Below, in pieces: positions 41,100-59,414 of a stretch of 64,000 nucleotides of DNA; the stretch's first letter is position 1; each line of letters begins with the position of its first letter. Position numbers and translations under genes: made by a program. The notes beneath the pieces are model-generated. The model saw only the letters and a program-made list of their open reading frames with translations. It had not been told where the DNA came from and ran no database searches. Source of the stretch: a virus. Location: IMG/VR virus record IMGVR_UViG_3300047560_000604, positions 62,001-126,000 of that record. One strand, written 5' to 3'.

Positions 41100-44000
41100 T
41101 GAGTTTAATTGTCATCATGCCAGGGGGTTTTCACCCGTTTCACGCAGGACATATGTCATTGTACAACAGTGCAAAAGAAGCATTTCCTGGTGCTGAATTA
41201 TATGTAGCTGCTACAAATGATATGAGTGAAAGACCATTTCCTTTTAGCATCAAAGAAAAATTAGCTAAGTTAGCTGGAGTACAACCCGGGCATTTTATAC
41301 AAGTTAAGAGCCCGTTCCAAGCCAAAGAAATTACTCAGAATTTTAATCCTGAACAAGACGTATTAGTATTTGTTCGTAGTGAAAAAGATAAGAACGAAAG
41401 TCCTAAACCTGGTGGCATGAAGAAGGATGGAAGTCCCGCATATTTTCAGCCGTTAGAAGGTAACAAAGATAAGTTACAGCCATTCGGTAAACATGCTTAC
41501 TTTGCATATTTACCTACAGTGAAGTTTGGTCCTGGTATTACTAGTGCTACTGAAATTCGCAACGCATGGCCAACCTTAAATGAAAAACGCAAACTAGCAA
41601 TGGTTATGAGTTTGTATCCTGTTACTCAACAGAAGCCGCAACTTGCAAAGAATGTAGTTAAGTTATTAGATGCTGGTATGAGTGGTCAGCCACTGAGTGA
41701 ATCACTAGATGGAAAAAACATAGATAAAGCAAATCAAGTAGCATCTATGCTTTATGCAGTCAAACCAGAACTATTCAAACGATTCGGTGATGAATATGTC
41801 ATGGATAAAATTGAACAATGCGTAGCTCAATGCGGTCCAGATAGTGCATCTGCTCAAATTGCTACAGAAGTTGTGCGTAGTCTAATAGATGAATTAAAAG
41901 AAGCAATTCAGCAACCACAAAAACAGGACGACAGTGGTGGTTACATGAAGTATTTTGCTAAACCCAAAGAACCTAAACCAACCCCAGAAAAAAGATTTAA
42001 CAGTTGGGATGAATACGAACAATCAAAGGACGTTAAACAACCACAGCCTGAATTAGAAGAGGCACGTATCATGGATCGTGATGCGTTGATTAATGCTTTC
42101 TATGTCTCACCGGAAGGCAGGAAGCATAGAGTTGCAGAAAAGATTCCATACTATTTGCTAGACAAGTTAGTTGGTCTACTGACTAAGAAATACAATATCA
42201 CTATGAACGATATTGAAGTTCGTCCTGCCGATCAATCACAATATCGTAGAAGCACACAATTAGACGAATTCGCTCCAGACGAAGGTGGTGGATCACGTAA
42301 GTTTATTCCTTGGACAGAGTTTATTGAACAACTAAAACAAATCTTACACAAAGACTTTAACTGTGTAGAAAACATTGTTAAGTCTACAATCAAAGCACGA
42401 TTCGTTCCACACGATCCAATGGAGTTTGGTCCAACAATGCTTTACTCATACTATGAGACTAGAGCAGGTGGCCGCAACAAGGGTGCTATTAGCACACGCG
42501 GTAGTATTCAAGTCGGTAAGTATTTTACAGGTGGATTGTTTGGGCAAGAAGAAAAACGACTACTTACAAGTTTCAATTTGTTAAAAGGTCATCCTTTTGA
42601 GCGTCACTTTGATTTGACATTTGACAACATCTATAAGATTGCTAATATCATTCAAGGCAATACTGAAGGTGCTTTAGAGTTTCAGCCACAACAAAAAGTA
42701 AACGAATTCGCCCCGAGTCCAGAGTTTAATGGCGGTGACGATGAAGGTGATAAGGCTCCTAACTATGCCTATGATGATGGTATGGCAAAAGGTTTTGGAT
42801 TGAGCGATAACATGACTCTTGATAGAGCAATGAAAATCAATAGTTGGTCTGGTGAGCATGTTCCACATTTCATTGCTGGTTTTATCGAAGGTCGTCGTGC
42901 TAAGATTCGCATGGATAAGAAACAACATGGAATTGTTGGCAAGTTAATGAAAGATGGCAGCATCAAGCAAAAGCAACTAGACGAATTTGCTCCAAATGGA
43001 TTTGATGGCTTTGAAGATGACAACAGAGTTCCAATGCACTTTGTCGTTGAAAAAGAATTGTATAACCGTCGTAGTAAGTGGAAGAAGTCTAGAGATGCTG
43101 ATGGCGTTATCTTATTTGCTACTAAACAGGAAGCAATTCAAGCCGCAGAAAAGTTCAACAAGCTAGATCCAAATCGTGAATTTGCTTACGGTGGAACACA
43201 GATGGTTCATGTAGATGATGACTTAGATGAAAACACATCCGGTGTTAGCGTTAAGAAATGGGCTAATCAAGTTCGCAAAGAGCATGGCGCGGATGTTAAG
43301 TTTAGAAATCGCAAAGAAGGCGGCGGAGCAGTTGACAGTGTAATTGCTAAGAATAGTCAAGGTGAAACAGTGGGTGTGTATAATCGCAAGACTGGTTACC
43401 CCACTGTTTACGAACCAAAGCAAGGTTTAGAAGAAAATTTTGACGCACAAGAGTTTCACCGTCATATGGAAAAACTCAGAGCAAGAGAAGAATTGCGTAA
43501 GACTGATCCAATGAAAGCATTGGTGGGAGACTTGATTGATAAAGAGAACGAAAAGCGTACTCCTGCTAAAAAGCCGGAAGACGATTCAATCAACATCAAC
43601 GATCCTCGTCATCCTAGCTATGGTGCTTTACATAACCCATTAAGTGATTTGAATGAAGGTTCTGAAATTGCACAGCCAGGCCAACTTGTTTCAATTATTC
43701 AAGCTCCAAGAATCTTAGACTTGTTACCAGGTGAGACATTTGAAGTTCGTTCTAGTAATGAACAGGGTGTAACATTAAAGCATGGTATGGGAACAAAGTT
43801 TGACAACGTTATATTCCCACACGGGACATACAAGATTGTAAAAGCGCAAGGTATGAAAGAAAACATCGGACGTAGAGGTATTCTTAAAGGCTTAGGAGCA
43901 GCAATGGCCGCAGGTGCAGCAGGTAAAGCAAGTGCAATCGCGGGAGCTTTTCCAACACCAAGTCATCAAGCTGCAATGTACAAAGCAGCCGCTGATAGTA

Positions 44001-44407
44001 ACAGAGCACAAGCTCGTGCTGATGCTGCCGAGAAAGCAAAAGCTGATGCTGAACGTTTACAAAAGAACACTGACCAAGTTGACAAAGAGCAACGAATCAA
44101 CCATCACAAGTTAGACGAATTCGCTCCTGGCAACGGAGATGATGGTTTACCATACGCTGAGTATCAAGTATATCAATGTAACCCTGAAGACCAATTTGAT
44201 TGGATAGGTGGTCCATTATATCAAACAGATAGTATGGGTATGGCACACAAGTATGCTTATGAAAAGTATGTAAAGCATCGTCCAAAAGCGTTTATGGTTT
44301 GGCAAGAACGTAGTCAAGGCAGTCGTGGTAATTACGGTGTCAAAGGTCAATCAGACCATAACGAAGATGATATGACCGAAAACAGTGATTATCTAGACGA
44401 AAAATAA
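41099..44407 (+). CDS. Giant packaged-type polyprotein: nucleotidyltransferase plus repeated modules and Tat-like segment
   Basis: This is a 1102-residue protein. The N-terminus (MPGGFHPFHAGH, HAGH at 15-18) has the HxGH motif of cytidylyltransferase-like nucleotidyltransferases, with a likely catalytic domain to about residue 175. The rest is a chain of smaller modules joined by nearly identical linkers: LDEFAP or VNEFAP at about 388, 535, 626 and 1005, plus other L-x-E sites (LSESLDG, LEEAR, LNEGS, LEENF). These match the prohead-protease-type pattern. At about residues 922-945 there is a Tat-like segment: GRRGILKG followed by an Ala/Gly-rich hydrophobic run and an AxA-type end. The module functions are unknown. 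It has no leader at the very N-terminus. Confidence 0.72.
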   Translation: MSLIVIMPGGFHPFHAGHMSLYNSAKEAFPGAELYVAATNDMSERPFPFSIKEKLAKLAGVQPGHFIQVKSPFQAKEITQNFNPEQDVLVFVRSEKDKNESPKPGGMKKDGSPAYFQPLEGNKDKLQPFGKHAYFAYLPTVKFGPGITSATEIRNAWPTLNEKRKLAMVMSLYPVTQQKPQLAKNVVKLLDAGMSGQPLSESLDGKNIDKANQVASMLYAVKPELFKRFGDEYVMDKIEQCVAQCGPDSASAQIATEVVRSLIDELKEAIQQPQKQDDSGGYMKYFAKPKEPKPTPEKRFNSWDEYEQSKDVKQPQPELEEARIMDRDALINAFYVSPEGRKHRVAEKIPYYLLDKLVGLLTKKYNITMNDIEVRPADQSQYRRSTQLDEFAPDEGGGSRKFIPWTEFIEQLKQILHKDFNCVENIVKSTIKARFVPHDPMEFGPTMLYSYYETRAGGRNKGAISTRGSIQVGKYFTGGLFGQEEKRLLTSFNLLKGHPFERHFDLTFDNIYKIANIIQGNTEGALEFQPQQKVNEFAPSPEFNGGDDEGDKAPNYAYDDGMAKGFGLSDNMTLDRAMKINSWSGEHVPHFIAGFIEGRRAKIRMDKKQHGIVGKLMKDGSIKQKQLDEFAPNGFDGFEDDNRVPMHFVVEKELYNRRSKWKKSRDADGVILFATKQEAIQAAEKFNKLDPNREFAYGGTQMVHVDDDLDENTSGVSVKKWANQVRKEHGADVKFRNRKEGGGAVDSVIAKNSQGETVGVYNRKTGYPTVYEPKQGLEENFDAQEFHRHMEKLRAREELRKTDPMKALVGDLIDKENEKRTPAKKPEDDSININDPRHPSYGALHNPLSDLNEGSEIAQPGQLVSIIQAPRILDLLPGETFEVRSSNEQGVTLKHGMGTKFDNVIFPHGTYKIVKAQGMKENIGRRGILKGLGAAMAAGAAGKASAIAGAFPTPSHQAAMYKAAADSNRAQARADAAEKAKADAERLQKNTDQVDKEQRINHHKLDEFAPGNGDDGLPYAEYQVYQCNPEDQFDWIGGPLYQTDSMGMAHKYAYEKYVKHRPKAFMVWQERSQGSRGNYGVKGQSDHNEDDMTENSDYLDEK

Positions 44408-45444: not shown

Positions 45445-45465
45445 TATACAAAACGCTTAAAAATG

Positions 45466-45489
45466 AGGCTGTCAATGACAGCCTTTTTT
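45466..45489 (+). terminator. Intrinsic terminator after the glycosyltransferase gene
   Basis: AGGCTGTC-aat-GACAGCCT with a T-run forms an 8-bp stem. An ATG inside it (45463) is thus not used as a start for the downstream gene. Confidence 0.9.
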
Positions 45490-45501: not shown

Positions 45502-46581
45502 ATGAACCTTACAGAATTACACAATTTCAATCTAGGTGACGCAATTTACTTTCATTCGGATCTAAACCAAGCAATATTTGACGGTGACCGCATGAACTCC
45601 GACGTCCGTCAACAACTATTATTGATAGCAGAAGATTTTATTGAACATCTAGGAATCAACCAGTTAGATGTTGCTGACATTACTATATCCGGATCTAACG
45701 CCGCATATACTTATACAAGACATTCCGATATAGACTTACATATCTTAGTTGATATGAGTAAGTTTGAAAATGACGATGTATACCGTGAGTTGTTTGACGC
45801 TAAAAAAGTCGTATATAATGACCAACATGACATTTACATCAACGATTATGAAGTAGAGTTGTATGTACAAGACACAAACACCCCGGTGGTTAGCTTGGGT
45901 GAATACTCAGTAATGAACGATCATTGGCTTAGACTTCCCAGAAAACGTAGAGCACACTTTGACCAAGCAGCTACAAAACTAAAATACGATAAGATTTACA
46001 AATTAGCTGAATTTGCATATAGAAGCAATGATATGGGTAAGATTCAAAACGTACTCAAAACTTTGAAGAAATATCGTCAAGCTGGTTTAGATTTGAACGG
46101 TGAATTCGGCCCAGAAAACTTAGCATACAAGGCAATCAAGCACAAAAATATCATAAGCAAGTTGTATGATAAGTTGAACAGTTTACACAGTGATAGATTA
46201 AGCCTACCTGAATCTAAATTATTAGATAAGCCAGAAATGTCTATCAGTCAACTAGCACATAAACATAAAGTAGACAAGAAACATATTCAAGACCAGTTGA
46301 GTAAAGGCATCAAAATTGAAATGGAACATACATCTAAGTATGATGTTGCGAAAGAAATTGCTTTGGATCATTTAGCTGAGGATCCTAATTATTACACGAA
46401 GTTAGACAAAGTTGGTTTAGAAGAATGCTCCGGGTACATTCCAAGCGAAAAAGAAAAGAATGATCCTCGTTGGGAACGTGCATTAAGTGTTGATGTAGGA
46501 CCTAACGCAATCAAAAAGAACGCAAAAGCATTTGGGTTTAAAGTAACTCGTGCAGGTATTCCCCCATTACTGAGAAAGTAA
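45502..46581 (+). CDS. Pol-beta-type nucleotidyltransferase with cleavable-leader-like start
   Basis: This 359-residue protein begins MNLTELHNF, an L-T-E leader. The NTase domain has GS (64-65) in ISGSNAAYT, the two metal Asp residues in SDIDLH (D76, D78) and a third acidic residue in VELYVQD (E119). Minimal NTases of this type transfer nucleotides to small molecules or proteins (MNT, Cca-like families). ATG 45502 is chosen because the earlier frame lies in the terminator. The C-terminus has SEKEKNDPRWERALSVDV, then a basic end; I recall this signature from other phage packaged-type proteins. Confidence 0.72.
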   Translation: MNLTELHNFNLGDAIYFHSDLNQAIFDGDRMNSDVRQQLLLIAEDFIEHLGINQLDVADITISGSNAAYTYTRHSDIDLHILVDMSKFENDDVYRELFDAKKVVYNDQHDIYINDYEVELYVQDTNTPVVSLGEYSVMNDHWLRLPRKRRAHFDQAATKLKYDKIYKLAEFAYRSNDMGKIQNVLKTLKKYRQAGLDLNGEFGPENLAYKAIKHKNIISKLYDKLNSLHSDRLSLPESKLLDKPEMSISQLAHKHKVDKKHIQDQLSKGIKIEMEHTSKYDVAKEIALDHLAEDPNYYTKLDKVGLEECSGYIPSEKEKNDPRWERALSVDVGPNAIKKNAKAFGFKVTRAGIPPLLRK

Positions 46582-46624
46582 GAAGATGGCAAAGACGGAT
46601 TTACCTTGACAATATTCTAAAAGC

Positions 46625-46632
46625 GATAAATA
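46625..46632 (+). promoter_or_regulatory. T4-type late promoter box (GATAAATA) with inverted repeat
   Basis: An 8-bp inverted repeat, TACATAAT/ATTATGTA (46631-46638 with 46647-46654), begins in the box and ends on the A of ATG 46654; the CGGA of the ribosome-binding site lies in the loop. Confidence 0.75.
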
Positions 46633-46653
46633 CATAATACACGGAAATTATGT

Positions 46654-49600
46654 ATGAAAATCAACAATCTTTTAGAAAATATCACCCCAACTTCAAATCC
46701 TGACCAAGGTCAAGGTGGACAAGCTCCTAAATTCAGACGCTCAGATAAAGTCCTAGAAGACGATAAAATTGAGGAAACTACTGCAGGTGCGATTGCTAGT
46801 GTTGCTAGTCCTGTAGGAAAAGTTCAACGTAGAGGTAAAGGCTCTATGCTGCAGGGTATTAAAACTAGTAGTAAGTTTCCTAACTCAAAAACAGTCAAAG
46901 AAGCAGGTATCGGTAGTGTGACAGTTGACATGCCAATCAGACCAGATGGTCATCAACAAGCATTAGATTTTCACAACAACGAAATAGATGACTTGGCTAT
47001 GCAAGCTGAGCCTGAATTCAAAGCATGGATTGAATCAGCAGAAGAACAATTAGTAGCAGCAGAATATGCTCGTAAAGACACTCATCATTTAGCCAAAGTA
47101 TTGAGTGCTCAACAAGTTAAAAAGTTTGGCAGTAGGACTCTAGGTCAACAACTAGGTAGCGTGGTAACGGGTTATAGTTATGCTTCTTACACACGAGAAA
47201 TTAAAGCCATCATGGATGGCCCAGTGAGAACTGCAGGTAATATCATTGCTCGTAGAACAGAATTAGAAAACAATATTGAGTTTGTAAAACAAACATGGGG
47301 CAGAATGTCCCGAGACGAGCGCCAACAATGGGCAGCTAGTGTTGGTATGACGTATCAACAATTAGAGCATGTTGTTAGAACTGGTAAAATGCCAGAGCCA
47401 CAAGCTGCTCAAGACACACAAGAAATTGAAGAAGGTTGGAAAGAAGATAGTCAGGCACATGAGGAATTCCTACAACATGCACGTGAACAACTTAGTGCGG
47501 CGAATCCAAGAGAAAGAATGGCTCTAGCGGTTCGTTTATCTAACTTAGAAAAGAAGCACTTCGGTGACGAAGTAGGGCAAGGATTTGATGCTAATACTGG
47601 AGTTAGTGCTACTAGTAATGGAATGAGTGCGGGAATTCAAGCTATACTATCATCAGTTGTAGCAGGTGATCAACCTAATAAACTAAACGCGGCACCATTT
47701 GGTAGTGCACCTGGATACAACAAACCAGGACCAGCAGTAGAATTACGTCCACAAGCATCATTACAGCCTAATAAGCCACTAAAGAGCATCTACCATCTAG
47801 ATGGAACTGATTTTATGGACGATGAAGTTGAACCAGGTGAACAACAAAAAGCACAAGATATTCTTAACTTGTATTACAATGCTGACGAAAAAACAAAAGC
47901 AGAATTAGAAGCTAGTCTTGTGAAGAACACAGGCTTGCCTTTAGAAGAAATCCTAGAGCGCATTAAAGAAATCGCTAGCGGTGACTTTTCTCGCATGAAC
48001 GACATAGCAGAAGGTAATCAGTTCCCAGAGCCAAGAAAGCCTCTTTCAGGTCAAATCCCTAGCAAGAGCGAAGTTCTAGGTAAAGATGGTTTAATCTATC
48101 ACTGGCGAGACCCACGTGCTAAACAAGTAGTTCAAGGTACAAACCTAAAGACTACAGGAAAAGCAGACTTGGGTAATAACCCAATGAATCTACCTGCAGG
48201 TTACGGTGATGTTGTTCAACCTCAAGGCATGAAAGAAGCTAAGAAAGCTAACACTAAAACTGCTAGAAAAGAGTTTGGTAAGCGTCCACCTGCTAAACTA
48301 AGCGATAAAGAACAAGAAAAGAAAAAATCTGAATCAGATAGATTGTGGGATATGTTACAAGCACATATTGCACAAGCCGAGAAAGAGAAAGTCAATGAAG
48401 TAGATCCTCACAACTATGATAGTGATGAAGATTATTATGATGCAGTTGAAGCAGATGATTTAAATCTTGACCAGTTCACCGGTGATTGGACAATTCCTGA
48501 TGAAATCGCAGTTTTGACAAATAGATTAAGATATGCAAAAAGTCAATATGAACGTGACTATATTAAAAATAGAATCAAGCGTTATGAGGACATCTACTAC
48601 GGTGATGACGACTTAGAAGAAGCCAGAGTTGGTAATCGCATGAGCGACATTAGTGTTGGCTCACCAAAGATTGTTAACTACAAAGGCAAATCAGTAGGTG
48701 AAGTTGGTATTGACCACGAACCAAGTCCAGGTAATGGCCCTTATTATTGGAAACATTATCTAACTGGTAAGTACATGGTTGGATATGATACTAAACAAGA
48801 AGCATTAGCAGATTTGAAATATCTTGTGATGCAAAATGAAGGTAGTGAATTAGAAGAAGGCGTCTGGGGAGATACAGCTAAACTAGTTGGCATTCCAGCA
48901 GTAGCAGGCGCATTAGCAGTTGGTGCTGGCCATTTAGATAAACAACAACCACATGTTGAAGTTGGTGGACAAAGTGCTAAGATTGTTCGTGCTGATACAA
49001 CAAAGATGCCACGTGATGCTATGTTACTAAAAGGTAAAGATGGTAAGATGTATCATGTGTGGATGACTAGAGGTACAGGTTCAGGACACACATTACTTGC
49101 TAGTCCGGCAGAAGAAGTTAAAGAAAATATCGGCGGTCGTCATCGTAGTGATGGTACTGCTGGTGAAAGAAGTGGTGGATTCAAATACCCTGGTTACAAG
49201 CCTGGCATGAGCGATAGAGAACTAGCAAAGTTGCTAGACAAAGGCGCGGAAAAGCGTAGACAAGCTGAAAAACAAAAACAGCAAGGTGTGGCGGAAGGCT
49301 CGGACGACAACGAACCGTTTGATTACGAAGAATGGAAGGCTTCTACTGTGAAACCTCGCAAGCCTCGTGGACACAAAGAGGCAGAATTTATGATTCAACA
49401 ACAGAAAGAAATAAATCGTAAACGCAAAGAGCAAGAGCAAGGTGTTGCGAAAGACGAATCTCAACCAACAAAGTATCGTGCTACAGTTGAGTATGGTCCT
49501 ACTGCGGCAGACGCACATTTCGTCACTGTAACAGCAAACTCAACAGAAGAAGCAGAAGCTAAAGTTGCTTCATGGTGTAAGAAGAAGGGTGTTCGCAACC

Positions 49601-50553
49601 CAATGATTACTATTAACGGCGCCGACCGCGGAACAATGGGCCTTAACGCTAGTTTAGAACAACATGCTGATGACAAGATGAAAGAATTAGGTCATAAATT
49701 CAAGGGTGTAAAAGAATCTAGCGAATCAGACCGCATCCAAGCATTGTATGACAAGTTAGAAAGAATGGAAGAGCGTTTAGGATATGATGATCCTAGAGTA
49801 AAAGCTATTCGTGATGAAATTCGTGGTATGAAAGATGAGTATCATGTAGTAGACGGCAACAAGTTAGATGAAAAGTCTAAGAGCCAAGCACAGTTCAGAA
49901 CAATGGCAGCAGTAGCACACAATCCAAAGTTTGCTAAGAAAGTTGGCATCAGTCAGAAAGTTGGCAAAGAGTTTCATAGTGCTGACAGAGGTGCAAACTA
50001 CAAGTCATTGCCAAAGAAGGTGGATGAAGCTGAAGTATCAGAAGATAAATTAGCTAGTGATTTGTATAAAGATTTTCAAATCTTTAAGAAGGGCGCTGAT
50101 AAAGATATCAGCAATAAAGCCAAAGATAAAGATATCGGTAGTAAGCCGAAAGATAAAGACATTATCAGTAAATCTGCTAAAATGACAAAAGAAGATAAAG
50201 ACCCATGCTGGAAAGACTACAAACAAATTGGCATGAAGAATAAAGGTGGAAAGAAAGTTCCTAACTGCGTTCCAAAAGAAAGTGTCGAAGAAGATTGGCA
50301 GAAAACTAACAAACAAGACAAGACTGACGGTATGAGTCCAAAAGCAGTTAAAGCATATCGTAGAGAGAATCCGGGTTCTAAACTACAAACTGCTGTGACT
50401 AAAAAGCCATCAGAATTAAAAGCAGGATCTAAAGATGCAAAACGCCGTAAGAGCTTTTGCGCTAGAATGAGTGGCAACAAAGGTCCAATGAAGGACGAAA
50501 AAGGTCGCCCAACTCCTAAGGCAAAAGCATTGAGCAGATGGAATTGTGAATAA
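46654..50553 (+). CDS. Giant packaged-type polyprotein, 1299 residues
   Basis: The leader MKINNLLENITP ends in L-L-E. Along the chain lie many x-E sites spaced 40-150 residues apart: EIEEGW, IAEGNQF, MKEAKKA, VNEVDP, LEEARVG, LEEGVWGD, VKENIGG, GVAEGSDD, VKESS, LDEKS, VDEAEV. The segments between them are different small domains, including a hydrophobic segment (VGIPAVAGALAVGAGHL), a KYRATVEYGPTAADAHF module and two Cys-containing C-terminal modules (DPCWKDYKQIGMKNKGG...VPNCVP and KSFCARMSGNKGP...RWNCE) that I recall from other phages. This looks like a polyprotein cut into packaged peptides by the prohead protease. No enzyme motif is evident. Confidence 0.7.
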   Translation: MKINNLLENITPTSNPDQGQGGQAPKFRRSDKVLEDDKIEETTAGAIASVASPVGKVQRRGKGSMLQGIKTSSKFPNSKTVKEAGIGSVTVDMPIRPDGHQQALDFHNNEIDDLAMQAEPEFKAWIESAEEQLVAAEYARKDTHHLAKVLSAQQVKKFGSRTLGQQLGSVVTGYSYASYTREIKAIMDGPVRTAGNIIARRTELENNIEFVKQTWGRMSRDERQQWAASVGMTYQQLEHVVRTGKMPEPQAAQDTQEIEEGWKEDSQAHEEFLQHAREQLSAANPRERMALAVRLSNLEKKHFGDEVGQGFDANTGVSATSNGMSAGIQAILSSVVAGDQPNKLNAAPFGSAPGYNKPGPAVELRPQASLQPNKPLKSIYHLDGTDFMDDEVEPGEQQKAQDILNLYYNADEKTKAELEASLVKNTGLPLEEILERIKEIASGDFSRMNDIAEGNQFPEPRKPLSGQIPSKSEVLGKDGLIYHWRDPRAKQVVQGTNLKTTGKADLGNNPMNLPAGYGDVVQPQGMKEAKKANTKTARKEFGKRPPAKLSDKEQEKKKSESDRLWDMLQAHIAQAEKEKVNEVDPHNYDSDEDYYDAVEADDLNLDQFTGDWTIPDEIAVLTNRLRYAKSQYERDYIKNRIKRYEDIYYGDDDLEEARVGNRMSDISVGSPKIVNYKGKSVGEVGIDHEPSPGNGPYYWKHYLTGKYMVGYDTKQEALADLKYLVMQNEGSELEEGVWGDTAKLVGIPAVAGALAVGAGHLDKQQPHVEVGGQSAKIVRADTTKMPRDAMLLKGKDGKMYHVWMTRGTGSGHTLLASPAEEVKENIGGRHRSDGTAGERSGGFKYPGYKPGMSDRELAKLLDKGAEKRRQAEKQKQQGVAEGSDDNEPFDYEEWKASTVKPRKPRGHKEAEFMIQQQKEINRKRKEQEQGVAKDESQPTKYRATVEYGPTAADAHFVTVTANSTEEAEAKVASWCKKKGVRNPMITINGADRGTMGLNASLEQHADDKMKELGHKFKGVKESSESDRIQALYDKLERMEERLGYDDPRVKAIRDEIRGMKDEYHVVDGNKLDEKSKSQAQFRTMAAVAHNPKFAKKVGISQKVGKEFHSADRGANYKSLPKKVDEAEVSEDKLASDLYKDFQIFKKGADKDISNKAKDKDIGSKPKDKDIISKSAKMTKEDKDPCWKDYKQIGMKNKGGKKVPNCVPKESVEEDWQKTNKQDKTDGMSPKAVKAYRRENPGSKLQTAVTKKPSELKAGSKDAKRRKSFCARMSGNKGPMKDEKGRPTPKAKALSRWNCE

Positions 50554-52022
50554 TGAAAATCAATAACTTACTAGAATCTAAAAAACTTCCAGGACAATTC
50601 GGGGCACAAATTATGTCTCCTGAAGAGTTCGTTGCTGCTGACGAAGCAGGCATTGATGTCGATCCTAACAAGATCGACCAAGAACATGAAGAAGTAGCAG
50701 AAGATAAACCACAACGTGATACAAATCGTTTGTGGCAAATGATTACTGACTATGAGCGTAGAGCTAAAAATTCAAGTAGTGATATTCGTAAGCAACACTA
50801 CATGAAGATGGCTGACGAATTACGTGCTAAGTTACCTACAAATGAAGCAACTGAACTGCCGGCTCCACAGAAAGAATTCGGAGATCAAGAGTTCCAAGAC
50901 TACATGAAACGTATAGTTGGCACACCTGATATCGATAAGAAAACAGGCTTGCCAAAGAAAGCTAAAGATAAGATTAGTAAGAAGACCGGTGAAGTTAAGC
51001 CGGGTGCTGAAAAGTATATCAGTGGTAAGACTAAATCTGACAAGTTCAAGATGCCTTACGTTCATCGTTCGAGCGTAGTAACTTACTACGATGCTGATGG
51101 TAAAAGATTCAGAGAAGAAGACGTTATTAACGCATTAAAAGTTCGTCCCAAATCGTTGTTAAAGCAAAACGAAAAGATGAAGCATTCAAACGGAGAGCTA
51201 GAACAGTTCTTCAACATTGGCTTCGCTGCATTGACAGGTATCGCTGTTGATGAATCTACAGGGAAACTAATCATTGTTAACACATGTCCTGGTGCTGGTT
51301 CATGTAAAGTTGATTGCTTTGCTATGAAAGGTGGTAAGGTTCAGTTTAAGAATGCTTGGCTAAGTGACGGTAAGATTCTTACATATCTATTGAATGATCC
51401 AAACGGATTCTTCAACCAATTATCAAAAGAGATTAGCAAAGAAGAAAAACTAGGCGACAAAGGTGGTTACACTGTGACTATACGTTGGCATGACGCTGGC
51501 GATTTCTTTAGCCCAGAATATTTAGACATGGCATTGAAGATTGCTGAAACACATCCGGGTGTTAAGTTCTATGCTTATACTAAGATGGCTAATGCAGCCT
51601 TAGCTAATAAGCCAGGTAACTTTATTATCAACTGGTCAGAAGGTGCTCACACTTCTCAAGAGAAACAAGTTAAGCAAGATGACCCTGAACTAGAGAAGAC
51701 AAAGAACAGTCGTATCGTTCCAGAGAAGTTATTCTATGACTTGTTGAAGAAAGATGCTAAGGGTAACTTAGATAAAGAAGGTGCTGATGCTGAAGGGGCT
51801 GGAGGACGTTGGGTAATGCGTGATCCTACTGCAACTAAAGAGTTGAAGCAACGTTTAGCTGATTACTACGGTATCAGTGCTAATAGTATTCTAAACTATG
51901 ACGAGTATACAAGTAAGCCAAAAGTTGCTGGCATGAAGTACAACGTAATTGTTGCGCCAGGTGAGGGTGACATTAGTGCTAACGATCCTAACGTATTAGC
52001 TACACTATTATTGAAGCACTAA
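50553..52022 (+). CDS. GP88-like protein with packaging-type leader
   Basis: This 489-residue protein begins MKINNLLESKKL, nearly identical to the leader of the preceding gene. The C-terminal two thirds contain NTCPGAGSCKVDCFAMKGG (three Cys, about residues 244-256), VTIRWHDAGDFFSPEYLDMALKIA and KFYAYTK, the pattern of the phage Gene Product 88 family, whose function is unknown. The first ~180 residues are Lys/Glu-rich and contain more L-x-E-like sites. It is coupled to the preceding gene (TAATG) and so to the polyprotein. Confidence 0.7.
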   Translation: MKINNLLESKKLPGQFGAQIMSPEEFVAADEAGIDVDPNKIDQEHEEVAEDKPQRDTNRLWQMITDYERRAKNSSSDIRKQHYMKMADELRAKLPTNEATELPAPQKEFGDQEFQDYMKRIVGTPDIDKKTGLPKKAKDKISKKTGEVKPGAEKYISGKTKSDKFKMPYVHRSSVVTYYDADGKRFREEDVINALKVRPKSLLKQNEKMKHSNGELEQFFNIGFAALTGIAVDESTGKLIIVNTCPGAGSCKVDCFAMKGGKVQFKNAWLSDGKILTYLLNDPNGFFNQLSKEISKEEKLGDKGGYTVTIRWHDAGDFFSPEYLDMALKIAETHPGVKFYAYTKMANAALANKPGNFIINWSEGAHTSQEKQVKQDDPELEKTKNSRIVPEKLFYDLLKKDAKGNLDKEGADAEGAGGRWVMRDPTATKELKQRLADYYGISANSILNYDEYTSKPKVAGMKYNVIVAPGEGDISANDPNVLATLLLKH

Positions 52023-52025
52023 ATA
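52018..52025 (+). promoter_or_regulatory. Candidate late promoter box (ACTAAATA variant)
   Basis: Overlaps the stop of the GP88-like gene and lies 55 nt before the Dps-like gene. Same variant as at 29428. Confidence 0.4.
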
Positions 52026-52079
52026 TATGGATAGAACAGTTTTTGAATTCTATTTGAAGTATAAGGGAAACCCACCAAA

Positions 52080-52520
52080 ATGTTGTCAGACAATTTAAAA
52101 GTATTATTAGCAAGCACCCAAAGTTTTGCTATCAAGTCACAAAACTTTCACTGGAACGTTGAAGGTAGTGATTTCCCTCAGTATCACGAATTCTTTGATA
52201 CATTATACGGAGATGTAGCTGGAACAATTGACAAGATTGCTGAGTACATTAGAATCTTAGGTCACTATACACCTGGCAGCTTAACTCGCTATGCTGAACT
52301 ATCAGTTATTCAAGACCAAACAAAGATCCCACGTGCTGAATTGATGTTCACTGAATCACTGCAAGATTGTGAAACAATGATTCAATTAGTAACACAAATG
52401 TTCGATGAGGCAGCAAATGAAAAACAACATGGTATAGAAAACTACATGGCTGAGTTACAAGATTTGTATGCTAAGAAAGCGTGGTTCATTCGTTCGATAT
52501 TAAAGAAAGCACGTGAGTAA
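52080..52520 (+). CDS. dps: Dps-like ferritin (DNA-binding/iron-storing)
   Basis: This 146-residue protein has all Dps ferroxidase ligands with family spacing: H24, H36, D40, D51, E55 (matching H31, H43, D47, D58, E62 in the Listeria protein). Dps dodecamers oxidise and store iron, detoxify peroxide and can bind DNA. Here the basic N-terminal tail that binds DNA in E. coli Dps is short. It is coupled to the amidoligase-like gene downstream (TAATG). It lacks the packaging leader itself, but is in the same block. It could protect phage DNA from oxidative damage. Confidence 0.9.
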   Translation: MLSDNLKVLLASTQSFAIKSQNFHWNVEGSDFPQYHEFFDTLYGDVAGTIDKIAEYIRILGHYTPGSLTRYAELSVIQDQTKIPRAELMFTESLQDCETMIQLVTQMFDEAANEKQHGIENYMAELQDLYAKKAWFIRSILKKARE

Positions 52521-54514
52521 TGAGAGCATCTCAGTTTACAGTCGAAAATACATTAGATGAAGCCCCAATGAATCCTACCGCTTTTGCTCAATCAATTGAG
52601 CAAGGTGAAAAGAAGGGTGTCTTAGTTGGGTACGAGTTTGAAGTATGTATTCCTCGTGCTACTATCAGTAACACGGGTGATAACTCAAAGGGGATCCTTG
52701 ATAAAATTGAAATCTACATGGAAGAATTCTTAGAATCAACAAACACTCAGGATATTTCAGTAGAAGAAATGTCTAAGTTGTTCCCTTTCAAGAAGCCAAT
52801 CAAAGGTTATGATAGTCTCAGTGATTATTATACAAAGGATCAAACTAATAGATTGCAAAAAGGCATTGAACTATTCAAAGAATTCCCAGAAGATATAAGA
52901 GCAAAGTTCATTCCTATCACTAAGCAGAGATTGAAAAGTTATTCTAATAAAAAAGCAGATCCCAAATCAATGTCATATCAAATTGCGTTTCTAGGTAGAT
53001 TTGGTAGAGACGTATATTCGAGCACTAGAGGTGAAATTGAATCCAAGGCGCATGATTTAATGGAGCTTTTGGATGGGAACGATTATTACTATGAAATGTT
53101 TGGCACACTAATCCCCCATACTGCATATGCAAACATGTTGAAATATTTCAATATCGATCCGGCGAGGGTGTGGAGTGCGATGCAAGACTATGTGTATGAT
53201 GAAGAAGATGATGATGGATATTATGCTGCTGCTTCTGGCGTATTGAAGCCTGCTCTTTCTAAGACAATGGGATCAGAAGTAATAATATTCAGCGACTACC
53301 ACGAAGATACAAAAGATTTAGACAAGTGGTACATAGAACCAGATGGTAGCTTATCAGCCGATGATGAAGATGATACTACTGCTGAGATAGTTAGTCCCCC
53401 ATTGCCAGCAATGAAAGCTATAGATGCATTGAAGAAATTCTATTCAATGGCATCAAGTTTAAATCTATATACTAACAACACTACAGGCTTACACATAAAT
53501 GTAAGTATTCCTGACACACTAGATGTAACAAAGTTAGCAGTGTTCTTGGGTGATGATTATGTGTTACAACAATATAACCGCGAAAATAACGGTTACGCAA
53601 AAGGAACAATGCAACGACTAAACTATGCAATGGTTAATAAATTAGATTCATACGCTCGTTCACCTATGCAAACTACTAACAGTAGAAGTAAAAAGCCAGG
53701 GGTATTTGGTCAACGTAAAACATCAAATCTACCTAACTACAAGATGCTGAATGATATTATTAAAAATCACACTGAAGGTCATACAGCTAGTATTAGTTAC
53801 AATGGTAAGTACATTTCATTTAGACATGCAGGCGGTGACTATTTAAGTGACTACAATAAGGTGTACAACACAGTTGGTCGCTTTGTTCGTGCGATGATTA
53901 TTGCTAGTGATCCAAACTTATATAAACGTGAGTACCAAGAAAAATTAGCCAAGATTGCTACTATGGGAGATCAACTACGCAACGTGCGTTTTGGTGACAC
54001 TAATAAAATGTTAACTATTATTCAGAAACATGGACTTCCTGTTATATCTGCACCAGTTGCGATTGTTAATCCTAAGTTTCCTATCGAATCTGTAATCAAG
54101 AGTTTTGGTAGAAATGAACAATGGTTCCCTGGTCCTAAAGCTGGTGCTGTAAAAACAAGACCTTCAACTGAAGCTGAGAAGCAATTATTAATTAGCAGGA
54201 TTCTTAACGCAGACACCAAACAGTTAGTTAATCAGGCTACTAGTTTTGTAACTGTAGATATTATTCCAAAGACTCCACAAATGGTAGGCATGATATTAGC
54301 TAATCCCGGTAACATGCTCAGAACAGTAGTGCAGCCAGTGTTCGGTAGAGGTAACAACGCACAAGCGTTCTTCACGACTTCAACCTCTACTTACCCATTG
54401 AATAGTCCAATCGCACAAGCTGCGATGAAAGCTATACTACAAGATAAGTGGGGTGCGATTAAGCCCGGTGCTAAAACGAAACCAAATGCCTCAAGGTTCT
54501 TAGACAAGCCATGA
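52520..54514 (+). CDS. Amidoligase-like (COOH-NH2 ligase) protein 1 with packaging-type leader
   Basis: This 664-residue protein begins MRASQFTVENTLDE, with V-E and L-D-E sites. The GS-like COOH-NH2 ligase pattern follows: GYEFEV (about 37-42), EPDGSLS, then AEIVSPPLP (about 288-297), TGLHINVSI (about 322) and ISFRHAGGDY (about 432). This order (GxExE...E(I/L)VSPPL...GxHxxV...FR..GGD) matches amidoligases described by Iyer and co-workers (2009), which make amide bonds between amino acids or peptides with ATP. It is a paralogue of the protein at 54948; the GGCT-like gene is between them. Substrates are unknown, and the assignment rests on motif order only. Confidence 0.62.
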   Translation: MRASQFTVENTLDEAPMNPTAFAQSIEQGEKKGVLVGYEFEVCIPRATISNTGDNSKGILDKIEIYMEEFLESTNTQDISVEEMSKLFPFKKPIKGYDSLSDYYTKDQTNRLQKGIELFKEFPEDIRAKFIPITKQRLKSYSNKKADPKSMSYQIAFLGRFGRDVYSSTRGEIESKAHDLMELLDGNDYYYEMFGTLIPHTAYANMLKYFNIDPARVWSAMQDYVYDEEDDDGYYAAASGVLKPALSKTMGSEVIIFSDYHEDTKDLDKWYIEPDGSLSADDEDDTTAEIVSPPLPAMKAIDALKKFYSMASSLNLYTNNTTGLHINVSIPDTLDVTKLAVFLGDDYVLQQYNRENNGYAKGTMQRLNYAMVNKLDSYARSPMQTTNSRSKKPGVFGQRKTSNLPNYKMLNDIIKNHTEGHTASISYNGKYISFRHAGGDYLSDYNKVYNTVGRFVRAMIIASDPNLYKREYQEKLAKIATMGDQLRNVRFGDTNKMLTIIQKHGLPVISAPVAIVNPKFPIESVIKSFGRNEQWFPGPKAGAVKTRPSTEAEKQLLISRILNADTKQLVNQATSFVTVDIIPKTPQMVGMILANPGNMLRTVVQPVFGRGNNAQAFFTTSTSTYPLNSPIAQAAMKAILQDKWGAIKPGAKTKPNASRFLDKP

Positions 54515-54951
54515 AGATAACTGACATCCTAACAGAAGCTGGTGAACAACCTATATACTATTTTGCATACGGTATGCTGACTGATCCTGAGATTATGGAT
54601 GGTATTCCATTAGTTGGTAAAGCAGAACTACCTAACTTTGAATTTGAAATGTTCATGTATGCAAATGTACTCCCCACACCAAGAAGTAAAGTTTATGGAA
54701 CTCTCTGGGAAGTTAACAGAGAAGTTATTAGTAGATTGGATCAAATTGAAGGCTACCCTCAGTTGTATGACAGAAAGATGGTTCCGGTCATATCTAATGG
54801 TAAACGATATGAAGCGTTCGTGTACACACTAACACCAGAATCAAGAGAAGAACTTGAAGGTTCTGAACCCAGCAAAAGTTACATAAATAAACTAATAAGG
54901 GGATATAAAAACGCAGGTGTTCCCCTAGAACAATTACAAAGAACACTATGA
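54511..54951 (+). CDS. Gamma-glutamylcyclotransferase (GGCT/AIG2)-like with packaging-type leader
   Basis: This 146-residue protein begins MKITDILTEAGE, with L-T-E. The GGCT-like fold follows: YYFAYGML (about 16-23), a conserved central GTLWEVNREVISRLDQIEGYP and YDRKMVPV. GGCT enzymes remove gamma-glutamyl groups from peptides or amines by cyclisation to 5-oxoproline; AIG2-like proteins are found with amidoligases in bacterial and phage operons. The acidic residue in the DQIEGYP segment is in the expected place of the catalytic Glu. It overlaps both amidoligase-like genes by 4 nt. Confidence 0.8.
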   Translation: MKITDILTEAGEQPIYYFAYGMLTDPEIMDGIPLVGKAELPNFEFEMFMYANVLPTPRSKVYGTLWEVNREVISRLDQIEGYPQLYDRKMVPVISNGKRYEAFVYTLTPESREELEGSEPSKSYINKLIRGYKNAGVPLEQLQRTL

Positions 54952-56864
54952 GAGCAATAGATTTTTTAGTAGAACAGCAGAGACTTGATGAAGTTAACAT
55001 GAGCCCACGCTCATTGAAGATGCTTGTTAAGAGCATCAATGCCACTGCTGGTATGGAATTTGAAATGGGTGTTCCTAATATTGAAGATCCAGACGAATAC
55101 GAATACGAAAACGACTACGATTCAGATGAACGTGCTAGTAGTTGGGGTAACATTGAAGATTTCTTTATGGGCGGCGACGGCAATAATAGTCGTAGTGACG
55201 TTCGTTCAATGATTGAATCCATGCAAGAACATTACAATGAGTGGTATTTTGAGCAAGAAGAAGAAGCATGGCGAGATGAAGGTCAAGAATTCTTAAAAGA
55301 CTATATTTTAGAAAATGATGAGTTTGACGAAGATGATGCAGAAGAACAAGCTAAACAAGAAATTCGTGAAGCAAACCCTGAACTACCAGAAGAATCACAT
55401 GACTTTGAAGAATTAGTAAGAGTTAGAAAAGACGAGATATTTGAAGAATTCGTACAAGACGAATGGGACAATGACGGTCGTATATATGATAGAGCCAAGG
55501 ATGAGTTTAGAGATAATTATAGCGTCCCGGATGAAGGTGATTGGCTGAGTGACAATTACGAATGGATGACTGACGTATACCATTCGTTTGGTAATAGACA
55601 TGATGTATTCTGGCCCTATCAAACTCGTTCAGGTGGTGAAGGTGATTTAGGTGATCTAGCTGACGAATTTAGTAGAGCAATCGGCAGAGGTGTGAACACA
55701 TATGCAGGTCACGGTGGTCCTAGAGAAGCAGGTGAATACACGATTGAAACTGACCCTAGTATTGATACTGATGATAGCGGCGATGCCGGATTAGAATTTG
55801 TTAGTCCACCGTTACCATTAACTGAATTAGTAGCCGACCTAGCTACAGTAGTTAAGTGGGCTAATGAGTATGGTTGTTATACAAACGATTCAACTGGGTT
55901 GCATATGAGTGTTAGTGTCCCTAATTATTCTATTGATAAGTTAGACTATGTTAAGTTAGCATTGTTATTAGGTGACGAGTATGTGTTACAACAGTTCGGT
56001 CGTCAATCAAATAACTATTGCCGTAGTGCTGTAAGCAAAGTTAAAGGGAAGCAACTATCACAAGAAGAATCTAAAAACATTCTAGACCAAATGAAGAACG
56101 GTTTATCGTTGGCAGCAAGTAAATTGATTCACACTGGCTTTACGGACAAGTATACAAGTATCAACACTAAAAATGGTTATGTAGAGTTTAGAAGTCCCGG
56201 TGGTGACTGGTTGAATGAAGATTTAGATAAGCTAACAAATACATTGTATCGTTTTGTTGTTGCATTGGATGCAGCATGTGACCCACAAAAGTACAAAGAA
56301 GACTACTATAAGAAGTTATACAAGATGTTGAATCCTGATGATTCAACTGATGATTATGGTAAGATGATTAATGATTTTAGTCAATATGCTACAGCAGTTG
56401 GTGGAGCCCCACAAAAAGTTGTTGCTAATTTCCGTAGATTAGCATTAGCAACATTGAAACAATCACAGGGCAAAGAATCTGGTCAATGGTGGTTTAACGT
56501 TGCTATCAATGGTCAACGAATTGAACTTGTTGCTGACAGCCCTGAACATGCATGGGAAGAAGCAGTAAAAGATAACCCACACTGGGGCAGAATGAACAAG
56601 AATGATGCTAAGATTACTAGATTGCGCCCATTTGTAGATACTAGACCAGCAAATGGTACAACAGCACAAGCAACAGCAGGGGAACCTCAACCGTTAAGTC
56701 AACCTCAACAGCAACAATATCAAATCTATCGCAAAGATTCAGGAACCACTATTACATCATTCATGGCTGCAGACGATGAGGATGCAATGCAAAGACTAGG
56801 GCACCATTTAGCATACGTGCCCTCACAAGCACACAACTTGTATGGTGTACGTAGGGCACAATAA
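54948..56864 (+). CDS. Amidoligase-like (COOH-NH2 ligase) protein 2 with packaging-type leader
   Basis: This 638-residue protein begins MRAIDFLVEQQRLDE, with L-V-E and L-D-E sites. The N-terminal ~200 residues carry GMEFEM (about 35-40) and then a very acidic Glu/Asp insert. The second half repeats the pattern of the gene at 52520: TDPSIDTDD, LEFVSPPLP (about 281-290), STGLHMSVSVP (about 316) and VEFRSPGGDW (about 414). Thus the two are paralogues. The C-terminal ~100 residues are Gln/Thr-rich plus a small YQIYRKDSGTT module. The motif for ATP/metal use is partial, so activity is uncertain. Confidence 0.62.
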   Translation: MRAIDFLVEQQRLDEVNMSPRSLKMLVKSINATAGMEFEMGVPNIEDPDEYEYENDYDSDERASSWGNIEDFFMGGDGNNSRSDVRSMIESMQEHYNEWYFEQEEEAWRDEGQEFLKDYILENDEFDEDDAEEQAKQEIREANPELPEESHDFEELVRVRKDEIFEEFVQDEWDNDGRIYDRAKDEFRDNYSVPDEGDWLSDNYEWMTDVYHSFGNRHDVFWPYQTRSGGEGDLGDLADEFSRAIGRGVNTYAGHGGPREAGEYTIETDPSIDTDDSGDAGLEFVSPPLPLTELVADLATVVKWANEYGCYTNDSTGLHMSVSVPNYSIDKLDYVKLALLLGDEYVLQQFGRQSNNYCRSAVSKVKGKQLSQEESKNILDQMKNGLSLAASKLIHTGFTDKYTSINTKNGYVEFRSPGGDWLNEDLDKLTNTLYRFVVALDAACDPQKYKEDYYKKLYKMLNPDDSTDDYGKMINDFSQYATAVGGAPQKVVANFRRLALATLKQSQGKESGQWWFNVAINGQRIELVADSPEHAWEEAVKDNPHWGRMNKNDAKITRLRPFVDTRPANGTTAQATAGEPQPLSQPQQQQYQIYRKDSGTTITSFMAADDEDAMQRLGHHLAYVPSQAHNLYGVRRAQ

Positions 56865-57349
56865 TGAGAGCAACTGAATTTATCTCTGAAGTATTTGAAC
56901 CCAATAAACAAAACTGGGAATGGGCTCGCCTTGGAAATAGCGAAGTAACCGCATATTTCAAAGTCGGTAAAAGAGATTATATTTGGCAAGCATTTACACG
57001 AAGTAGTAATCCCAAGAAGTGGGAAATACAATTTCGTTTAATGAGAGATTATGAAAACGATCCCGAAGAATTAGACTTGTTTGGTAAGACTGGTACAGGT
57101 AATTCAGCGGAAGTAATGTCAACTGCTGTGGATATTACAAGAGCATTCTTAAAAGAATACGGACTTGATAGAGTAGAAGAAATTACATTCAACGCAAAAG
57201 AAGATAGTCGCATTGGATTATATGCTAAGATGATTAAAAGACTATTACCCGATTGGGACTTGTATAGTAAAAAAGACCCAGTTGATGGAATGGTATTCTC
57301 TCTTACTGACCGTAGAGCGTATGACAAGCCTGAGAACAAGATTACATAA
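56864..57349 (+). CDS. Packaged-type protein of unknown function
   Basis: This 161-residue protein begins MRATEFISEVFE, with I-S-E. The rest is an alpha/beta fold with WQAFTRSSNPKKWEIQFRLM and NAKEDSRIGLYAKMIKRLLPDW, a pattern I recall from phage proteins with an acetyltransferase-like layout, but no catalytic site can be assigned. It is coupled to the preceding amidoligase-like gene by a one-base overlap. Confidence 0.58.
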   Translation: MRATEFISEVFEPNKQNWEWARLGNSEVTAYFKVGKRDYIWQAFTRSSNPKKWEIQFRLMRDYENDPEELDLFGKTGTGNSAEVMSTAVDITRAFLKEYGLDRVEEITFNAKEDSRIGLYAKMIKRLLPDWDLYSKKDPVDGMVFSLTDRRAYDKPENKIT

Positions 57350-57461
57350 GAACATGCCTTAGGACCGTGGTAGTTACTACCATGAAGGCGTCGGGCGGCT
57401 GCTGCCCTAGAACAAGCGATTCGCTACCGCAAGTTCTTTAAGTGAGCTTTTTCCTTTTATA
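57350..57461 (+). ncRNA. Candidate structured RNA with three hairpins
   Basis: Three hairpins lie in about 75 nt: TGGTAG-tta-CTACCA (57368-57382), GGGC/GCCC (57393-57407) and AGAAC-aa-GCG / CGC-aa-GTTCT (57409-57437), the last with a symmetrical internal loop. It is followed by a T-rich run. The stretch has no open frame and lies between two genes with the packaging leader. It may be a small RNA, an attenuator or the terminator of the preceding operon. Confidence 0.45.
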
Positions 57462-57469
57462 GATAAATA
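57462..57469 (+). promoter_or_regulatory. T4-type late promoter box (GATAAATA), start codon near +1
   Basis: The box ends 6 nt before ATG 57476; by T4 spacing, transcription starts at about 57475, making the metallopeptidase messenger leaderless. Confidence 0.72.
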
Positions 57470-57475
57470 TATATT

Positions 57476-58066
57476 ATGCGAGCCGAATCATTTATCCAAG
57501 AATCCGCTGTTAGAGAACTAGCAGACAAACTTCCAACCCTCAAAAGAACTGACTATGATGCAATCGACCGTTTAATGAAACGAGTTGGTATTAAACATAA
57601 TGTATCTTCTAAAAAGTTGCATAATCTATTTGTCAGTAAATACGGACATAGTCCAGATCACTGGGTAAAGCGCATCAAAAGTCGTTTGGGTGAGACCGAC
57701 GTAGATCCTACAGACGATAAATCTGCACAGATTGACAAATTTATTAAGTGGTCTTACAACGCATTGAACATACAAGAGCCCCTACCAAAATTCCATTTTA
57801 GTAGAGATACAGAAGAAGCACAGGATCAGCATCGTACTGGTTCACATGACAGCCAGGGCAATATTACAGTTTACATTGAGAATCGTAACTTAGTTGATAT
57901 CTTCCGCACAATATTCCATGAGCTTGTGCATCACAGACAAGACCAATTAAACATGATTAAAGATGGTGACAGTTATCCAGGTAGTCCTATCGAAGCAATG
58001 GCAGATATGATGGCTGGAAAGTACATAAAGATTTATGGCAAACAACATCCCGAAATCTTCCAATAA
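57476..58066 (+). CDS. Zinc metallopeptidase (HExxH) with packaging-type leader
   Basis: This 196-residue protein begins MRAESFIQESAVR, with I-Q-E. The middle has a helical DNA- or peptide-binding-like segment (RLMKRVGIKHNVSSKKLHNLF). The active-site motif HELVHH (about residues 148-153) is of the gluzincin/zincin type, with a Glu in SPIEAMADMMAG (about 172) as the likely third ligand. This points to a small intracellular-type peptidase. Target proteins are unknown. There is a late, leaderless-type promoter upstream. Confidence 0.8.
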   Translation: MRAESFIQESAVRELADKLPTLKRTDYDAIDRLMKRVGIKHNVSSKKLHNLFVSKYGHSPDHWVKRIKSRLGETDVDPTDDKSAQIDKFIKWSYNALNIQEPLPKFHFSRDTEEAQDQHRTGSHDSQGNITVYIENRNLVDIFRTIFHELVHHRQDQLNMIKDGDSYPGSPIEAMADMMAGKYIKIYGKQHPEIFQ

Positions 58067-58220
58067 AGTACAACAAAAGTTAAAAGAAGTCCCTGACGAT
58101 TTGTTCGAGAAGGGTAAAGACGACATTGATTTTAAAAGAGAAGTGATTAAAAGGCAGTATAATAAGGATCCTTTAAGTATCTTTACACTAATAAAGAGAA
58201 TGATTAATGAGAGCAAATGA
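58035..58220 (+). CDS. Small Lys-rich protein, probable
   Basis: This 61-residue frame (MANNIPKSSNKVQQKL...) starts within the end of the peptidase gene and ends overlapping the lysozyme gene at 58207 by 14 nt. It fills the ~140-nt gap between these genes. Composition is Lys/Asp-rich and helical. No ribosome-binding site is strong; a start further downstream is also possible. Confidence 0.45.
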   Translation: MANNIPKSSNKVQQKLKEVPDDLFEKGKDDIDFKREVIKRQYNKDPLSIFTLIKRMINESK

Positions 58221-58881
58221 ATTCGTTACCGAAGACATGTCACGTAGAGGATTTCTAGGTGCGCTAGGTGCAGGTGCAATGGCTGCATCAGGGGTTGCTC
58301 AAGCTAAAGTTAATCCAGTTGCTAACAATCCTAAAGTAGAATTGTTAATGAAGTGGGCTAAGAAGTTTATTACTAACCCATCGGAGTTAGCGGCATTCAT
58401 GGCACAATGCGCCCACGAAAGCGACAACTTTGCAACAATGGAAGAATATGGTTCACCTGAACGTTTTGCTAAGAAGTACGACATTCAACACAATCCAGAC
58501 AAAGCAAAACAACTAGGCAATACTAATCCAGGCGATGGCATCAAGTATCGTGGTCGTGGATATATTCAATTGACTGGTAAGTACAACTATCAAAAAGCAG
58601 GTGAGTGGGTATCCAAGTATATCAATCATCCAGTTGACTTTGTTAAGCAGCCTGATTTAGTTGCAACACCCACTGCGGCTGCGTTGAGTAGCATTTGGTA
58701 TTGGATGACATTCGTTCACCCTAAGGCAAAGAATTTCAGTAACACCAAACAAGTTACTAAGCACATCAACCCTGGGTTGAAGGGTCAAAAGAATCGTGAA
58801 CAGAAAGCTAAAGATTGGCAAGCTGCATTGAATGTTAAACCTATTAAGCCGGGTAAGTCATTTAAGGTAGCTTCAAGATGA
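58207..58881 (+). CDS. Packaged GH19 lysozyme with both a capsid-type leader and a Tat signal
   Basis: This is a 224-residue protein. It begins MRANEFVTED (V-T-E leader, residues 1-10), directly followed by a twin-arginine-type signal: SRRGFLG (12-18), an Ala/Gly-rich hydrophobic run, and an AQA cleavage site at about 31-33. The rest is GH19: catalytic Glu in AQCAHESDNF (E71), GIKYRGRGYIQLTGKYNY (about 115-130). Its parallel at 26633 lacks both signals. If the leader is cut off in the head, the Tat signal would become N-terminal. It could then be exported to the periplasm to cut peptidoglycan. That is an inference. Confidence 0.82.
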   Translation: MRANEFVTEDMSRRGFLGALGAGAMAASGVAQAKVNPVANNPKVELLMKWAKKFITNPSELAAFMAQCAHESDNFATMEEYGSPERFAKKYDIQHNPDKAKQLGNTNPGDGIKYRGRGYIQLTGKYNYQKAGEWVSKYINHPVDFVKQPDLVATPTAAALSSIWYWMTFVHPKAKNFSNTKQVTKHINPGLKGQKNREQKAKDWQAALNVKPIKPGKSFKVASR

Positions 58882-59414
58882 GAGCATTTGAACTAACTAA
58901 GAATAAATGGGAACTGCTTATATCTAATGCAGATAAGCATGAAGCTGGTTCTGAATTAGTTAACTTAGTTAAACATGCCTATTCCGTAACACCAAAAGGT
59001 TCGATGATCCAAAGTTTGCGTGATGTTATTCCTAGTGATTGGAATGTTATTGATTGGGACCAAGATCCTGACATTGACGCATGTGTGTTCTATCGTAAGA
59101 ATAGACCGAGTGAAGATTGGGTGGGAATTAAAATACAAGGTGTCGGGCATGATGGCACTAGACAAAGCAAAGACAAAGCAATCGGTAAAGTTTTGGAACT
59201 GTTACAGAAGCAAGGTGTTTGGATTGAATCCTCAGATGCCATGCGTCATGTCTTACATAAGTTAAATGCACCAAATGTTAAGAATGAACAGTTCTTACAA
59301 AATCTGTTCGGTGATCCAAACCTGCACATGGTTCAAGATGACACATATCGTAGAACTTTACAAAACGGTCAAGAGATTCAAGAAACCGTATTCGGTCATC
59401 CTAAGCTAAAATAA
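58878..59414 (+). CDS. Packaged-type protein of unknown function
   Basis: This 178-residue protein begins MRAFELTKNKWELL, like its neighbours but without an L-x-E site at the usual place. The middle (WDQDPDIDACVFYRKNRPSEDW and GIKIQGVGHDGTRQSKDKA) is a pattern I recall from other T4-like phages' proteins; function not known. It overlaps the lysozyme gene by 4 nt and is the last gene of the packaged-type block. Confidence 0.6.
   Translation: MRAFELTKNKWELLISNADKHEAGSELVNLVKHAYSVTPKGSMIQSLRDVIPSDWNVIDWDQDPDIDACVFYRKNRPSEDWVGIKIQGVGHDGTRQSKDKAIGKVLELLQKQGVWIESSDAMRHVLHKLNAPNVKNEQFLQNLFGDPNLHMVQDDTYRRTLQNGQEIQETVFGHPKLK

Follow-up and report, generated by a model that had tools for sequence, protein, structure and literature searches.

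In phage T4, IPI-III and Alt carry a short N-terminal leader with the motif EFIxE and a (L/I)xE cut, and unrelated bodies are found under this one leader; the biology of the capsid-targeting sequence (CTS) has been reviewed (PMC9026906). For IPIII, ten residues are enough for packaging, residues 4 and 7 being important for targeting and residues 8 and 10 for cutting (PMC9026906). A large packaged set with propeptides removed by a head protease is likewise found in phiKZ and SPN3US, which belong to another phage group and differ in that several propeptides exceed 100 residues and a short leader common to the set is lacking (PMC5694885). Polyvalent proteins are multidomain and are thought to be packaged and injected, and the relevant sections of their description mention no shared capsid-targeting leader (Iyer et al., 2017; PMC5512222). 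In the jumbo phage Atu_ph07, mass spectrometry identified 131 virion proteins, most of them encoded by CDS 31-76, 170-215, and 284-329, with 29 from CDS 31-76 (PMC6102473); the authors of that work refer to unique structural proteins.

The locus described here lies in a stretch of 64,000 nucleotides (the window, that is, the whole of this stretch) corresponding to positions 62001-126000 of a 133,466-base IMG/VR contig (IMGVR_UViG_3300047560_000604). Isolate phages gave no near match; its DNA polymerase shares 46-49% identity with the enzymes of three jumbo T4-like phages, Phosso, Vibrio 2.275.O, and Atu_ph07, and terminase- and tail-like genes were recognized on the contig by eye from translations. 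With a probability of roughly 0.84, the leaders in a block of the window are T4-type capsid-targeting sequences on protease-released cargo, in a greatly expanded form; packaging, cutting, ejection, and host function are inferred. Compared with the handful in T4, about a dozen leader genes, mostly for enzymes, are present on one partial genome. Multidomain precursors with many internal sites and a TAT-like segment after some leaders are further differences from T4. A difference from polyvalent proteins is that prohead protease-type sites connect the modules. What is new is the scale, the range of payloads, the polyprotein organization, and a common leader across an uncultured group. A search of the open-access literature (subscription papers and preprints were outside its scope) returned no description of such a leader-cargo system.

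The initial annotation had claimed at least nine genes with a near-identical leader ending in hydrophobic-x-E and followed by bodies of different families. The leader claim held for eight genes, and the bodies do belong to different families. The leader genes and leader candidates of the block are on the plus strand, and a slash here marks a putative cut or junction. Two open with MKINNLLE, namely 46654-50553, a 1299-aa multidomain precursor with a C-terminal DUF6321 domain, and 50553-52022, a 489-aa GP88 (PF17338) protein whose relatives start MNFKELFE, MKITELYE, or MKIRQLTE and keep the final E. They are followed by 52520-54514 (MRASQFTVE; second site TLDE/APMNP), a 664-aa amidoligase-like protein (PF12224), and 54511-54951 (MKITDILTE), a 146-aa gamma-glutamyl cyclotransferase-like protein (PF06094). 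The 638-aa product of 54948-56864 (MRAIDFLVE; second site RLDE/VNMSP) resembles an Atu_ph07 protein over ~190 aa and is likely a second amidoligase-like protein. A DUF6934-like domain with a predicted GNAT acetyltransferase-like fold is encoded at 56864-57349 (MRATEFISE). At 57476-58066 (MRAESFIQE), an N-terminal helical module and the site RLGE/TDVD precede an HExxH (HELVHHRQ) metallopeptidase-like domain, which in fold comparison matched minigluzincin and IrrE structures only weakly. The eighth gene, 58207-58881 (MRANEFVTE), continues with a TAT-like segment (MSRRGFLGALGAGAMAASGVAQA) and a GH19 endolysin-like domain.

The remaining two candidates are weaker. The leader of 58878-59414 (a 178-aa protein) is degenerate: MRAFELTKN keeps the MRAxEL start without the final E, so no cutting is predicted. 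MNLTE at 45502-46581, which encodes an NTP_transf_2 and DUF5661 protein, is a doubtful leader because its ATG is internal to an ORF from 45463 and a relative starting MQFKEL aligns continuously. As a separate observation, a hairpin followed by a T run at 45465-45485, just before 45502, suggests a terminator and favors 45502 over 45463 as the start. Two block genes lack the leader altogether, a Dps-like ferritin at 52080 and a 61-aa ORF at 58035. Beyond the block, leaders occur in the window at 20488-21093 (plus strand; MKSLRHYLTE, 201 aa) and at contig positions 7528, 24755, 32026, and 58359. Payloads across window and contig include GP88, amidoligase, gamma-glutamyl cyclotransferase, a GNAT-like fold, an HExxH metallopeptidase-like domain, GH19, and HD_4 phosphohydrolase. 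No Rfam match was obtained within 40000-62500, and none to a defence-system library among the block proteins scanned.

At the sequence level, the leader ends LVE, ISE, IQE, LTE, and LLE fit (L/I)xE, VTE and TVE fit more loosely, and 58878 has no such end. The pattern M[RK]x(1-7)[LIVF]xE, applied to the first 12 residues, matches 7/12 block ORFs vs 7/173 ORFs in the remainder of the contig (Fisher P 1.7e-6); within-protein shuffles gave 0.21 expected block matches and a maximum of 3 in 200 shuffles. A tightened leader-based regex, run on 83 phage T4 CDS, matches only IPII and IPIII, with no false positives. Both of these start MKTYQEFIAE, which shares EFIxE with MRATEFISE of the window, and T4 gp24 starts MAKINELLRE, which resembles MKINNLLE. 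The claim that five genes share leader codons also held, as ATGAGAGCA opens exactly 52520, 54948, 56864, 58207, and 58878. Across 177 MRAxEF[IL]xE leaders, all codons after the ATG vary synonymously; a pure nucleic acid signal is therefore excluded, and the leader is selected as a peptide.

The leader, some nine to ten residues long, recurs widely. A scan of IMG/VR for MRAxEFIxE returned at least 120 stretches, with 135/146 matches at ORF starts, vs 30 stretches and 3 matches at ORF starts for the control pattern MRAxKFIxK. The leader is found on ~40 unrelated bodies in related contigs; single linkage gives 48 families, 16 of which have at least two members and a few singletons of which are spurious. 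Payloads of the relatives include ADPrib_exo_Tox (L155), NUDIX (L035), M48 peptidase (L020), Fe/Mn superoxide dismutase (L162), and a sigma-70 region 4 match (L021), together with weak matches to ParB_N (L085) and GNAT (L035). A likeness to polyvalent proteins is limited to weak matches in relatives, all below curated cut-offs: ART-PolyVal (L124, E 4e-6), LPD22 (L122, E 0.006), and Kinase-PolyVal (L102, E 0.005). The window itself has no polyvalent-type domain match. Payloads turn over fast among relatives and the leader stays constant. The commonest leader protein of the relatives (a 52-residue query from L130) found no match in isolate phages.

As in T4, a gp21/gp22/gp23-type head cassette is present in the window's relatives, the large ones carrying it with a Peptidase_S77 protease, and 8/9 large leader-bearing contigs have both the S77 (gp21-type) protease and gp23. 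In 9/9 complete gp23 N-termini, the major capsid propeptide ends LLAE/, LKE/, LAE/, or LME/; all nine come from relatives and none from the window's contig, and the cut is inferred by homology to T4. The gp22-like protein of one relative (G002) has 20 LxE sites vs 6.8 expected. On the window's own 133-kb contig, neither gp21 nor a complete gp23 was found, only fragments matching gp23, probably because the contig is itself a fragment and not a complete genome. Upstream of the window, at contig 45.0-52.2 kb (L003/L004), lies an array of ~20 small ORFs, most ending ..WFxLRWx, two of which match T4 gp23 fragments (profile 4-48, E 1e-13; 171-198, E 7e-4); the same observation is listed for G003:C1:4632-4733 and G012:C1:57311-57394. 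Separately, the post-leader stretch of one cargo protein (L143:7403-7597; TASAGATTSGNIA) resembles the mature major capsid protein N-terminus (NASAGSTASGNIA), as does a stretch after an internal SLEE in L098. It is possible that these stretches mimic the mature capsid N-terminus.

Modules placed behind a leader in one protein turn up again within larger multidomain proteins elsewhere, and [LIVMF]xE directly precedes 37/51 internal module copies vs a 2.1% background, so that the leader's E marks a module boundary. The binomial P for this count overstates independence, as the module copies are related by descent. At DUF6321, the junction E/DW is present in 11/11 cases (VEE/DWQK in the window; VNE/, INE/, LSE/, and others elsewhere), including free-standing copies, in which the leader itself supplies the E (MRAREFINE/DWQK or MRAYEFINE/DWNK). 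In the metallopeptidase family, an LxE-type site lies a short way ahead of the catalytic domain in every member inspected (by eye, in alignment), and in L035, L163, and L072 the leader is joined straight to that domain at the place where others have the internal site. These boundaries support cutting at several sites, which remains inferred from sequence alone. On the same footing, the 1299-aa protein of 46654, with junctions KIEE/TTAGAIAS, DLEE/ARVG, ELEE/GVWG, KLDE/KSKS, and SVEE/DWQK, is likely a cargo polyprotein. For the 1102-aa cytidylyltransferase-like protein of 41099-44407 (plus strand), which has four [LV][DN]E-FAP junctions and more LxE sites and lacks a leader, such a role is possible. 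An excess of LxE in the two proteins was considered and rejected, as the count is not above shuffles, and the polyprotein claim therefore rests on site position. EFAP as a general junction word was likewise rejected, being mostly confined to the window protein.

A link to virions comes from Atu_ph07, at the level of gene clusters only; the presence of leader proteins in virions is inferred from this relative, and no virion data exist for a single leader protein. Leader-like starts are enriched in its three virion clusters (15/141 vs 5/187 ORFs, first 250 kb; P 0.003, a value inflated by tandem copies). Within the cluster of CDS 31-76, CDS 53-62 are arranged in tandem and start M[RK]WxQL[NTI]E or, in the case of CDS 53, MKWNDLNE. 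Atu_ph07 and other Rak2-group jumbo phages share T4-type head genes, leader-like starts, and a tandem array in a virion-protein cluster with the system described here, and they differ in having M[RK]WxQLTE instead of MRAxEFIxE and in the genome location of the cargo array. A possible assignment of the Atu_ph07 tandem family to ADP-ribosyltransferases would rest on conserved YRG, S, and E residues alone, as no Pfam or PDB sequence match was obtained. As a side observation, the 778-aa product of CDS 53 (L065:39484-41820, minus strand) contains a P-loop kinase domain of the zeta-toxin type (PF06414, E 1.5e-14).

That the block encodes T4-like proteins packed in the capsid and delivered with the DNA, as the initial annotation proposed, is well supported as a mechanism, with both analogy and several independent sequence tests speaking for it; packaging and delivery are inferred. 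In the proposed mechanism, leader proteins would be made late and attach through their N-terminal leader to the prohead's gp22-type scaffold core, and the gp23 shell would then enclose them. The gp21-type protease would cut after hydrophobic-x-E and release the mature protein within the head, from which it would pass into the next host together with the DNA. Cutting at several sites would split multidomain precursors (46654 and, probably, 41099) into separate basic or enzymatic modules, and payloads would be swapped beneath a constant leader.

The alternative that survives best also has the leader bind the prohead core and be cut there, and assigns most of the proteins to head assembly (core, DNA condensation, maturation) instead of effector functions in the next host. 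It is favored by several small, lysine-rich modules that resemble core or DNA-binding proteins, by the head assembly defects of T4 IPIII mutants (PMC9026906), and by the N-terminal similarity after the cut between the L143 cargo and the mature major capsid protein. However, most recognizable payloads are enzymes without an evident role in assembly (ADP-ribosyltransferase, NUDIX, M48 peptidase, superoxide dismutase, amidoligase, cyclotransferase, GH19), and payloads are quickly replaced between relatives under a leader that stays, making this alternative unlikely. A tag unrelated to the capsid (a localization or degradation signal, or a translation-start element) with a coincidental LxE likeness could appeal to the lack of any packaging experiment and to leaders on proteins able to act in the producing cell, such as the GH19 endolysin with its TAT-like segment, but it is very unlikely, given that synonymous codon variation rules out a pure nucleic acid signal and that coincidence would have to account for the T4 CTS match, the gp21-type protease, the LxE capsid cuts, and the LxE module junctions alike.

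If the preferred reading of the leaders as capsid-targeting sequences is true, the injected cargo of uncultured T4-like phages could be listed from sequence, without virion proteomics, and many unknown genes would become candidates for effectors of host takeover or anti-defence. The loading of proteins into phage heads could draw on ready-made leaders and on a natural polyprotein format, and the old question of the purpose of T4-type internal proteins would be directly testable in many phages. A bolder version holds that one peptide code provides plug-in loading of dozens of exchangeable enzymes and head-cut polyproteins in jumbo T4-like phages, some payloads bearing a second, TAT-type signal that cutting would move near the N-terminus for possible sorting to the periplasm after injection. 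The odds lean slightly against this extended version.

The TAT-like segment, which reads DMSRRGFLGALGAGA or differs little from it, comes directly after the leader in proteins with at least two unrelated bodies, namely GH19 (window, L009, L020) and M48 peptidase (L020), and L079 is a probable third. These segments fall short of the cut-off of the Pfam TAT model. Cutting after the E is inferred, on the sequence only, to place the twin arginines ~four residues from the new N-terminus; TAT-type export by the host is speculation.

T4-type late promoter cores (ATAAATA) lie upstream of 45502, 46654, and 57476, with CATAAATA 4 nt before 45502 and ATAAATA 21 nt before 46654 and 6 nt before 57476. Upstream of leader genes, TAAATA is no commoner than upstream of other genes. 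Two spacing classes of ATAAATA were observed, one of them 17-21 nt upstream of the ATG. In the other, absent from two T4 regions examined, the core is just 4-7 nt before the ATG (window 34890, 45502, and 57476; L002:9755, 10898, and 14058, that is, contig 24755, 25898, and 29058), and this short-spacing class is also found in relatives L006-L052. At such a distance the mRNA would begin approximately at the start codon, which would make these late mRNAs leaderless.
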